From NCBI GenBank assembly GCA_017399105.1, contig JAFQEJ010000053.1, positions 1-64,000 of the forward strand: 64,000 bases of DNA, given 5' to 3'. The notes beneath the pieces were generated by a model that saw only the letters and a list, made by a program, of their open reading frames with translations, made no database searches and was not told the origin of the DNA. Origin of the DNA: Clostridia bacterium. GTDB lineage: Bacteria; Bacillota; Clostridia; Oscillospirales; CAG-272. This document shows positions 37,227 to 39,893 of the stretch, piece by piece. Position numbers and translations under genes: made by a program. Every line of letters starts with the position of its first letter. The first letter of the stretch is position 1.

Positions 37227-38129
37227 TCAGAATAAGAACAGGAATGTGGAAGCAAAAGAAAGAATGAGACCGATTAAATGCTTCTTACTCGGATATTCTT
37301 TAAAGCCGACAGCACCGACAACGGCAGTAAGAACCACACTTCCGCCGGTTGACATAGGATAAAGCACCGAAGCAGGAACATGCGCCGCACCGATCAACTG
37401 AAGGAGATAAGACGAACCGTTTAAAATTGCACTGACACATACGACAGTCACAATGAAAGCGGTCAGCTTTTTAGTCAAAGGCTGATCAAGCGGCTTAACT
37501 TTTTTAACTGTGCAAATGATGATTAGTAAAATGCCGGCAATAATTCCGCTGATTCCGTTCGAAAGAATTGTAAAGCTGGTGGCAGATACCGTAGCAAGCT
37601 CTGAAACCTGATGAACCTTGGAGGTGATGCTGACGAAACCGTTCAGCGTGAACACCACCATGCAGAGAAAAATAAACAGCAAGGTTTTATTGCTCGATTT
37701 ATTTTTACTGCTTGTGGAAAGAACAGGGAATACCATTGATACAACAAGCAGAATCACTCCGATAATACGAGGAATACTGATGCCTTCATCAAGGAAAATG
37801 ATACCGAAAAAATAGGGAAGCAGCATGCCGCCGAGCATCAGAAACATGGTGTAGATCGAAAAATCACCGAGCGCAAAGATTTTAAATCCGATCATGGTGT
37901 AGCAGCAATATAAAACCGAAACAATCGCCGCCATTAATGCAGAGAAGGGGGTAACTTCAAGCTTGAATCCGTTGAAGATAAAAAATATTACAGAAATTGC
38001 AAGGCTGCTGAGTGAAATAAAAAGAAGTGATGCGGTGATAGAATTACCCAGTTTTGACTGAAACAGTTTACTCATGGAGAGATTCAGTGCCATCAGCACC
38101 ACAGCAATGAGAATAAGAATGTAGTACAT
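37227..38129 (-). CDS. EamA-like drug/metabolite transporter-superfamily permease
   Basis: A 300-residue integral membrane protein with about ten hydrophobic segments in two related halves, as in the DMT (EamA) superfamily. The two halves meet after a basic loop (STSSKNKSSNKT, about residue 145). A further charged loop KKVKPLDQPLTKK lies in the second half, and the pattern near the end PASVLYPMSTGGSVVLTAVVG fits EamA proteins, followed by FKEYPSKKHLIG. The exported or imported substrate is unknown. ATG 38129 has AAGGAG 5 nt upstream. The in-frame start at 38189 lies upstream of the -10 element at 38158. A strong promoter precedes it. Confidence 0.8.
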   Translation of the reverse strand: MYYILILIAVVLMALNLSMSKLFQSKLGNSITASLLFISLSSLAISVIFFIFNGFKLEVTPFSALMAAIVSVLYCCYTMIGFKIFALGDFSIYTMFLMLGGMLLPYFFGIIFLDEGISIPRIIGVILLVVSMVFPVLSTSSKNKSSNKTLLFIFLCMVVFTLNGFVSITSKVHQVSELATVSATSFTILSNGISGIIAGILLIIICTVKKVKPLDQPLTKKLTAFIVTVVCVSAILNGSSYLLQLIGAAHVPASVLYPMSTGGSVVLTAVVGAVGFKEYPSKKHLIGLILSFASTFLFLF

Positions 38130-38242: not shown

Positions 38243-38273
38243 TTGACTCTCCACCATACTGTAATGATAAACT
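38243..38273 (+). promoter_or_regulatory. MerR-type promoter with a 19-bp spacer
   Basis: TTGACT (38243-38248), a 19-bp spacer and TAAACT (38268-38273). The sequence TTGACTCTCC and the over-long spacer are the classical layout of promoters activated by MerR-family proteins (as at bmr and mer), which twist the DNA to realign the hexamers. The MerR gene itself starts at 38324, so autoactivation is likely. Confidence 0.7.
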
Positions 38274-38323
38274 GATACTACGGAAGAAGGCGCCCTTCCT
38301 AAACGCCGAAAAGGAGATTACTC

Positions 38324-39850
38324 ATGTATAAGATAGGTGAACTGTCTGCTCTTTGCAGCATTCCGGTGAAGACCCTGCGTTTTTATGACAATGAAGGTAT
38401 ACTGATACCCGAAAAAATTGATCCCTTTACCGGTTATCGTTATTACTCGGCATCGCAGCTCTCACAATGTCTGCGCATTATCACACTGAAAGATCTCGGC
38501 TTCACGCTGGGAGAAATCAGAGAACTGATCAAAGCACCGATTAAAACAGAAGCTATTCTTCAAAATAAGATTCAGGAACTGAAGGAAATCGCCAATAAAA
38601 CTCAAAGACAGATTGGTGTTCTTGAAATGATGACACATGAGCTTCGCGAAAACAGCCATCACTTGATGCATCTGGTTCAAGCAAAGGGAGAGACGATGAA
38701 AGCTGCCTGTATTACCGGAATATTCAAGAATCGTGCAGAAGTTAAACACGAGCTTGATCAGCTCCGTGAATCTATTCCACAGAGCATCCGCGGTAATCGA
38801 AGTCTCATCATAGCATATGAGCTTGATTATGCAGATGAGAACATTCACTGCTCGATATGCTGTGAAATTACCGGTAATCTCCCTATCGAAAGTGAAATTC
38901 AAGTCCGATTGATTCCGTTGAATGGCGATTATGCATCCGTCACAGGCAGTAAAGACCAGCTTGCCGAATCCTATCGTTCACTTCTGAGACAGATGGCAGG
39001 CGCATCCCTCACTGCATCAGGCGCATTCTATGAAATCTGCTATGATGACGGATCAATCGAATTGAAAATCCCGATTTATCAAACGAATATGAACGAAAAA
39101 AATGAGGATAGCATAATGAATAACAATACTATATTTGAAAATGATCCCGATGTGATCGGCAAATGGAAAATCTACGACAAACTTCCGAGTCCTGAAATGT
39201 TCTCGCCTTTAAAATCCAAATGCAGTGACAAAGATGATGTATGGTTAAAGGAAATCTATTTTCTTCCCGGTGGTGAAGGCTATTGGATCTTCAACGGGTG
39301 GACGAAAGGAAAACTAATTGAAGCATACGGTTATCCGAAAAAGAAGGCGGAATATGAATACACAATAGAAAAACACAATGACAAACAATTCCTCTTTCTT
39401 CGTCTGCAGTCCGGATGTGACATCATGCCGGAATACCTTATCTATGAAAAGGTATCAGACCGCGCCTATACAAAAGAAGATATACGCGTAAAAGATAATG
39501 TTGAGATTCTCTTTGAAAGTGACGATCAAGTTCTCGGAAACTGGTATGCCTACGATTTTGTCCCCGACATCGATGAATTTGATTCTTCAAAAAGAAACTG
39601 GCAAGGTGATCTTTTCTTTAAGAAAATCACTTTTCAAGAAGATGGAAGTGCTGACTGCCTGATGGGAGAAAAAACGATCCCTTACAGACAAAACTGGACC
39701 AGAGGCACACTGCTCGATAAAAGAAATCAGATTGCCGAAGCGTACACTCTGATGAATATTGACGGCAGGGAATACCTCTTCGTCGAATGGAAGAGCGGCG
39801 ACTATATCTTTGCAAAGCGTGCACCGCTGTATTACGTATTTATCAGATAA
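38324..39850 (+). CDS. MerR-family regulator with duplicated C-terminal sensor domain
   Basis: A 508-residue protein. Residues 1-70 are a MerR winged helix-turn-helix (IGELSALCSIPVKTLRFYDNE, then DPFTGYRYYSASQL). A coiled-coil of about 80-120 follows. Residues of about 125-255 are GyrI/BmrR-like, the usual drug-sensing module. Two repeats of about 110 residues follow, at 274 (DPDVIGKWKIYDKLP) and 400 (DDQVLGNWYAYDFVP). Each is a beta-rich stretch with Trp-rich landmarks (FNGWTKGKL / RQNWTRGTL) that suggests a lipocalin-like fold. An internal ATG (39116, residue 265) has GAGGA 7 nt upstream, exactly at the junction, so the repeats may also be made alone. MerR proteins with BmrR-like sensors are about 270 residues, so the extra half is unusual. 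It likely activates its own 19-bp-spacer promoter. Confidence 0.8.
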   Translation: MYKIGELSALCSIPVKTLRFYDNEGILIPEKIDPFTGYRYYSASQLSQCLRIITLKDLGFTLGEIRELIKAPIKTEAILQNKIQELKEIANKTQRQIGVLEMMTHELRENSHHLMHLVQAKGETMKAACITGIFKNRAEVKHELDQLRESIPQSIRGNRSLIIAYELDYADENIHCSICCEITGNLPIESEIQVRLIPLNGDYASVTGSKDQLAESYRSLLRQMAGASLTASGAFYEICYDDGSIELKIPIYQTNMNEKNEDSIMNNNTIFENDPDVIGKWKIYDKLPSPEMFSPLKSKCSDKDDVWLKEIYFLPGGEGYWIFNGWTKGKLIEAYGYPKKKAEYEYTIEKHNDKQFLFLRLQSGCDIMPEYLIYEKVSDRAYTKEDIRVKDNVEILFESDDQVLGNWYAYDFVPDIDEFDSSKRNWQGDLFFKKITFQEDGSADCLMGEKTIPYRQNWTRGTLLDKRNQIAEAYTLMNIDGREYLFVEWKSGDYIFAKRAPLYYVFIR

Positions 39851-39854
39851 AAAT

Positions 39855-39893
39855 ATCCCCTCGATTACATTGAAGTAATCGAGGGGATTCTGC
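39855..39893. terminator. Bidirectional terminator
   Basis: ATCCCCTCGATTAC (39855-39868) pairs with GTAATCGAGGGGAT (39875-39888), a 14-bp stem. It lies between the converging MerR gene and the DUF4358 gene. Confidence 0.85.

Follow-up and report, generated by a model that had tools for sequence, protein, structure and literature searches.

Two products from one MerR-type gene are known from TipA. This gene has two start codons and gives two isoforms, TipAL and TipAS, the short form being predominant and thiopeptide-binding (PMC7762955). Sensor, activator and neutralizer are combined in one gene, as described in the same source (PMC7762955). For AlbA, AlbAL and AlbAS are distinguished, and the short form is assumed by analogy with TipA (PMC6078987).

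The gene described here lies in a stretch of 64,000 nucleotides from a Clostridia bacterium (assembly GCA_017399105.1, contig JAFQEJ010000053.1), which is called the window. The original prediction read it as a MerR plus GyrI-like regulator fused to a duplicated sensor, with an internal start at ATG 39116 that would give a stand-alone ligand-binding protein. The family to which the gene belongs looks TipA-like: one autoregulated gene would give a regulator and a sensor-only binding protein, the sensor being unrelated to that of TipA.

Domain organization of the regulator

The gene and its adjacent elements are listed below.

38243-38273, plus strand: putative own promoter with a 19-bp spacer, -35 TTGACT at 38243-38248 and -10 TAAACT at 38268-38273 (recognized by sequence only)
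38311-38316, plus strand: AAGGAG Shine-Dalgarno (SD) sequence of the main start ATG 38324 (-8.7 kcal/mol; 7 nt before the ATG)
38324-39850, plus strand: full-length regulator gene, a single open reading frame of 508 residues (58.9 kDa)
38327-38533, plus strand: MerR helix-turn-helix (HTH), residues 2-70 (Pfam PF13411, E 4e-16)
38537-38650, plus strand: long helix of residues 72-109, interpreted as the coiled coil of MerR proteins (DSSP on the model)
38669-39082, plus strand: GyrI-like domain, approximate, residues 116-253 with the first strand at 116-119 (AlphaFold model, Foldseek)
39113-39454, plus strand: repeat 1, residues 264-377, predicted β-barrel (blastp, profile, model)
39491-39847, plus strand: repeat 2, residues 390-508, predicted eight-stranded β-barrel (profile, model)
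39855-39888, no strand assigned: perfect inverted repeat of 14 bp with a 6-nt loop, terminator-like, directly beyond the stop codon

The 508-residue protein starts with the MerR HTH and the coiled coil, followed by the GyrI-like domain and two repeats of about 115 residues each. The AlphaFold model was calculated from 81 sequences (mean pLDDT 92) and comprises the HTH, the helix, a mixed α/β domain and two all-β repeats. Pfam matches only the MerR HTH of the window protein with confidence. PF06445 (GyrI-like) is absent from the Pfam matches of this protein, and a GyrI-like match at E 0.01 is present in just one of 81 family members (the best 80 of 299 loci plus the window). A sequence search against the PDB gave matches in the MerR part, of which the two BrlR entries extend to residue 221.

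Foldseek aligns the HTH, the coil and the middle part with EcmrR (6xl5, 2e-15), followed by BmrR and BrlR (range to 1e-11). The middle domain alone resembles the drug-binding domain of BmrR as well as CtaZ and CtR107. Entries matching by fold are 6xl5, 1bow, 7zhe and 3e0h. Given the matches to EcmrR, BmrR, BrlR and CtaZ and the model pLDDT of 92, the original reading of this part as MerR plus GyrI-like regulator is right by fold.

The inverted repeat at 39855-39888 sits between convergent genes. It scored as terminator-like on the minus strand, i.e. for the neighboring DUF4358 gene.

Fold and occurrence of the C-terminal repeats

The proposed duplication is genuine. Repeats 1 and 2 share 26% identity (blastp, E 4e-11) within the profile bounds listed above, and repeat 2 carries the motifs GxW, WT(K/R)G and EWKSGDY. 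The tandem repeat was also modelled on its own (pLDDT 92), and this model contains the strands of two barrels with the conserved GxW in the first strand. GxW is a hallmark of lipocalins. The structure prediction proposed for each repeat gave a β-barrel in both cases, and the repeats are predicted to be lipocalin-like barrels with eight strands.

The top row of VIA-align for the repeats is a DL-peptidase domain (Z 7.7); lipocalin-family and avidin chains reach up to Z 7.2 and fatty-acid-binding proteins about 6, in a list that mainly probes repeat 2 and in which, according to the tool's own note, such values (Z below 8) may mean a common arrangement only. Foldseek matches of the repeats are weak, the best (9e-4) being a DUF3598 protein with an rmsd of 18.8; lipocalins follow at E 0.1 or worse. 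Searches of the repeats against Pfam and NCBIfam gave no convincing family. Matches to DUF5107 and NOV5WD8W are weak and were judged to be chance.

One motif pattern was scanned over a genome collection of 84,980 species. It gave 299 loci encoding relatives, the best 80 of which were fetched. Among these and the window protein, Pfam MerR_1 is found in 44 of 81 proteins and a BlaR1/M56 peptidase match in two of 81. The repeat forms the C-terminus of BlaR1/M56-type proteins of Clostridium carboxidivorans and C. brassicae (L057, L071), possibly as an extracytoplasmic sensor. Elusimicrobia is the title of 16 of the 37 MerR-less loci among the best 80 of 299. Many of the MerR-less proteins combine a signal or membrane segment at the N-terminus (crude hydropathy rule) with two or three repeats, and a few are truncated at contig ends. 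Secreted-looking Elusimicrobia proteins built of two to three repeat copies are encoded by L032-L034, L038, L040, L042, L044 and others. L129 is a free-standing tandem-barrel gene of 239 aa with neither MerR nor a hydrophobic segment. Stand-alone homologues, for which the original prediction suggested a search, thus exist in the form of L129 and of the numerous repeat proteins that have a signal or membrane segment.

The tandem module is present at E 1e-15 in 60 of 395 genomes of the window's family, and a tandem-profile search of the taxonomic class added only a small number of genes (7 of 391 genomes). The genome of the window itself has one more match, a MerR gene of 366 aa (G000:C37) that lacks the GyrI-like domain and has no ATG within the junction stretch examined. 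Two other arrangements were observed. At L010/L115 and L013/L122 (genome G086; frames of 560 and 592 aa), the repeat precedes a subtilase-like domain recognized by eye. L160 (genome G854) is a class A gene (see below) of 640 aa with three repeats in place of two.

A total of 126 open reading frames combining MerR and repeats were obtained from 184 sequences, and 77 were retained at less than 85% identity. Classes were set by architecture and by a tree of the HTH and coil. Class A has HTH, GyrI-like domain and two repeats (n = 22), class B has a middle segment of about 70 aa (n = 17) and class C has HTH and two repeats (n = 16). Class D also has HTH and two repeats and forms a separate clade (support 97, n = 21); one short gene belongs to the A clade. 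The tree is based on few columns, with 71 of 142 inner branches open and 23 changes of the junction-start trait described below, and thus backs this grouping in outline only.

Promoter, leader and neighboring genes

The 19-bp MerR spacer claimed for the promoter is present (TTGACT-19 bp-TAAACT). Promoter-like sites, defined by a spacer of 19/20 bp and a score of at least 9 of 12, lie upstream of 20/22 class A, 15/17 class B, 16/16 class C and 19/21 class D genes and of 25/28 MerR genes with a TipAS domain. Such a site precedes 20 of 37 other MerR genes as well and is therefore not specific.

Many leaders of classes B and C (e.g. L069, L083, L070, L017) contain a AAGGTACCTT-type palindrome that follows the -10 element at a distance of a few bases. 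Variants such as AAGACGTCTT preserve its symmetry. The class A counterpart is a hairpin (mean z -1.8, 20 genes), which is weak in the window (38282-38299); with a z of -0.23 versus this class A mean, there is no clear 5' UTR hairpin in the window. The leader palindrome may form a hairpin at the 5' end of the mRNA or serve as an additional operator.

The set of neighbors consists of 55 of 76 listed proteins and two from the window. No widely shared neighbor family was found in this set, as no Pfam family is present in more than 5 of the 57 proteins. The commonest are HTH_3 (5/57) and AraC-type HTH (4/57). This diversity is consistent with a solitary unit.

A conserved start signal at the sensor junction

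In a first scan of all in-frame starts of 44 genes, a strong SD-ATG was observed at a near-constant distance from the HTH. In the relatives, this internal start sits after the coiled coil at the junction of HTH-coil and sensor (residue about 100-119) and was missed by the original prediction. The junction signal is defined as an in-frame ATG with an SD of -8 kcal/mol or lower at residues 95-135. This zone and cut-off were picked after the 44 genes had been inspected, and the SD energies assume a Bacillus-type anti-SD in place of each genome's own 16S 3' end.

The signal is present in 19/22 class A genes (the window counted via ATG 38696), 9/17 class B genes and 13/16 class C genes. This corresponds to 41/55 including the window and 40/54 without it. 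Class D has the signal in 1/21 genes and the short A-clade gene lacks it (0/1). As a positive control, 26 of 30 MerR genes with a TipAS domain show the signal. Among the other MerR genes (minimum length 180 aa), it is present in 2 of 38, which is about chance level. Four short genes (<180 aa) and two repeat-bearing genes were excluded from the control counts. Barrel-free MerR-GyrI genes are nearly absent from the controls because the 30 loci from a PF06445 search left a single MerR reading frame after removal of near-copies. Classes A, B and C together differ from the other MerR genes with a Fisher p of 6e-12 and from class D with 2e-8, values that are not strict probabilities since the genes are related and not independent.

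Classes A-C and the A clade include 16 genes outside the 44 inspected ones, and 11 of these carry the signal (A 5/5, B 3/6, C 3/4, A-clade gene 0/1). The number expected from the remainder of the same genes is 0.04-0.09 strong ATGs per zone per gene. A plain SD rule (GGAG, GAGG, AGGA or GGGG 4-10 nt before the ATG) gives 18/22 for class A, 9/17 for B, 14/16 for C and 1/21 for D, with 28/30 TipAS-domain genes and 3/38 other MerR genes as controls.

The SD core spans all three codon phases, with hits in phases 0/1/2 of 13/4/3 (A), 5/1/4 (B) and 7/6/1 (C). The family looks TipA-like because the junction start is conserved and the SD core occurs in all three phases. The observed SDs are also stronger than those of synonymous-codon shuffles, with a mean dE of -1.6 for class A (Wilcoxon p 1e-3), -3.1 for class B (p 1e-3) and -1.9 for the pooled short genes of C and D (p 1e-4). 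In the class A alignment, the ATG occupies one column in 18/22 genes, and a strong ATG is at most three columns away in 18/22. The internal SD of class A is stronger than the main SD in 13/18 genes (median -9.3 vs -6.25, p 0.01), as would be expected if the short product were made in excess. In classes B (4/9) and C (8/13) the internal SD is not stronger than the main SD.

Start codons in the window gene

Three internal ATGs of the window gene are relevant here.

38666-38668, plus strand: codon 115, the closest ATG to the conserved start of the family and three columns away from it; no SD (-1.2 kcal/mol)
38687-38698, plus strand: GGAG, 5-nt spacer and in-frame ATG 38696 (codon 125), -8.4 kcal/mol; would give 384 aa (44.7 kDa)
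39104-39118, plus strand: GAGGA (39104-39108) and ATG 39116 (codon 265), SD energy -6.1 kcal/mol; hypothetical product of 244 aa (29.1 kDa)

An internal start of the TipA type is not found in the window gene, the SD of the homologous ATG 38666 being as weak as listed. ATG 38696 was rejected as the homologue of the family start, as the class A alignment places the family ATG beside window codon 114-115. It lies ten codons beyond 38666, and a start there would drop the first GyrI-like strand of the model. The SD at codon 125 is not above synonymous shuffles (p 0.65). ATG 38696 is a possible relocated internal start, and the window copy is a divergent member of the family that may have lost or moved its second start.

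The start chosen by the original prediction, ATG 39116, does have GAGGA 7 nt upstream, but it is neither remarkable against the background nor conserved. The background was taken from 44 mechanical reading frames of at least 200 aa in the window. An equal or better SD precedes 65 of their 387 internal in-frame ATGs, and 31 of the 44 frames contain at least one such ATG. None of the 21 other class A genes in the alignment of 22 has an ATG in the column of 39116. Within three codons of this column, an in-frame ATG occurs in 3 of 18 other class A genes scanned (-5.0, -1.2 and -6.4 kcal/mol). L160 has an ATG three columns past it. ATG 39116 as a conserved start is ruled out by the background counts and the class A alignment and is probably not the start that matters. 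The predicted folding energy of the mRNA (70 nt) is -2.2 kcal/mol around 39116, compared with -15.6 for the main start and -16.1 for ATG 38696, and this open context makes use of ATG 39116 possible.

For the window gene, the absence of any short product is an evenly balanced proposition. A short product starting at 38696 is conceivable but doubtful, and one starting at 39116 is improbable.

Proposed model and alternatives

We regard it as fairly probable that these genes encode a self-activating, ligand-responsive MerR regulator and that in many relatives the ribosome-binding site at the junction also yields a sensor-only protein. The model builds on the domains, the promoter-like site, the conservation of the internal start relative to the controls and the lack of a widely shared neighbor gene. 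The GyrI-like domain and the two lipocalin-like barrels would form the sensor. Ligand would bind to the full-length dimer, and the regulator would then untwist its own promoter with the 19-bp spacer, resulting in autoactivation. The mRNA would give more regulator and, in relatives with the junction start only, the sensor-only protein. The latter would soak up ligand, as in TipAL/TipAS. The idea of a regulator that also yields a stand-alone binder finds support in sequence signals of the family, at a start other than the one originally proposed (residue about 100-119), and is not clear for the window gene.

Alternatively, the protein could be a single-product regulator similar to EcmrR or BmrR with two added barrels, the SD-ATGs being a by-product of a conserved Glu/Gly-rich peptide at the end of the coil. 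A recurring EGExKM peptide supplies part of the SD signal in class A, and synonymous p-values below 0.05 for single genes are reached by only 4/22 class A, 4/14 class B and 8/26 short genes, so a cause at the protein level is possible. The class A peptide by itself leads to SD-like DNA, as the means of its synonymous shuffles range from -3.9 to -11.2 kcal/mol. Clade D shares the type of promoter and lacks the internal start, and the window copy combines a good main SD with the lack of an SD at the homologous ATG. The position of the SD core in three codon phases argues against this explanation, as do the different peptides of classes B and C (GGTF, EVEF, SEGTV, LRENAI) and the contrast between 2/38 other MerR genes and 41/55 genes of classes A-C. 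On balance, a single-product regulator is rather unlikely.

Two further explanations concern the window itself. A start at 39116 could give a barrel-only protein of 244 aa in the source organism, or the site could be a relic of gene fusion. The GAGGA at 7 nt and the open mRNA context would agree with this, the class A alignment places ATG 39116 inside an insertion of two residues between the domains, and L129 is an example of a free-standing tandem-barrel gene. Against it stand the 65 of 387 window ATGs with a matching or better SD and the lack of an ATG in this column in 21/21 relatives; we consider it very unlikely. It is also unlikely, if slightly less so, that the chief target of the regulator is the divergent gene of an EamA-type transporter (37227-38129, minus strand), with pump control as by BmrR and autoregulation as a secondary effect. 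The divergent orientation and the identity of the transporter (PF00892, E 1e-6) fit such a role. The EamA-type gene, however, has a 17-bp promoter-like site of its own at 38186-38158, and the families with at least two matches among the 57 neighbor proteins, in which the window genes are included, do not comprise EamA.

Starting from the self-activating regulator with a junction start, a more general reading can tentatively be proposed. HTH, coil and the in-frame ribosome-binding site with its ATG might form a portable cassette into which unrelated binders are swapped, giving self-titrating sensor and sink genes. If so, the binders swapped would be TipAS helices, the GyrI-like domain plus barrels, and barrels alone. 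The barrel family would then be a large unrecognized set of antibiotic- or metabolite-binding systems, chiefly of gut Clostridia. As a second family with the dual-product design, the barrel genes would provide a sequence signature for locating further genes of this kind, and gut bacteria would become a source of candidate ligand binders with unknown specificity.

Comparison with known systems

The repeats of the window protein resemble lipocalin/calycin barrels in the predicted eight-stranded barrel and the GxW in the first strand (best lipocalin-family Z 7.2). They differ in that identity is about 10%, Z stays under 8 and no sequence family matches. BlaR1/MecR1-type M56 proteins and the other repeat carriers have the same repeat at the C-terminus, but they look extracytoplasmic or membrane-bound and are not MerR proteins.

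EcmrR, BmrR and BrlR share HTH, coil and GyrI-like fold with the window protein (Foldseek 2e-15 to 1e-11). Their chains have about 270 residues and end with the GyrI-like domain. To our knowledge, they have no barrel repeats.

AlbA of Klebsiella oxytoca is likewise a MerR regulator with a drug-binding part made of tandem repeats (PMC6078987). The repeats of AlbA, however, are TipAS-like α-helical domains (PMC6078987).

Among the matches listed for literature on MerR, GyrI-like proteins, TipA and internal starts, no description of the MerR-barrel family was found. With Pfam matches considered up to E 5, PF07739 is absent from the window protein, and it is also missing from the 22 families listed for the 81 members. 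As it has no TipAS domain, the MerR-barrel family is not filed as TipA.

The TipA class (TipAL/TipAS of Streptomyces lividans; SkgA) has the same layout of MerR HTH and coil with a C-terminal ligand domain. It also shares a MerR-type promoter-like site of its own and an internal in-frame start that is similarly spaced from the HTH (26/30 TipAS-domain genes). The sensor is different, consisting in the MerR-barrel family of the GyrI-like domain and β-barrels instead of the TipAS domain, and the window copy lacks an SD at the homologous ATG. The original prediction held that a one-component regulator with an additional stand-alone binding protein would be new. Streptomyces TipAL/TipAS is already known as such a case (PMC7762955, PMC6078987); the dual product thus has a precedent, and what is new is the type of sensor. 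Finding the TipA design in a second family, there with an unrelated barrel sensor, would speak for its generality.
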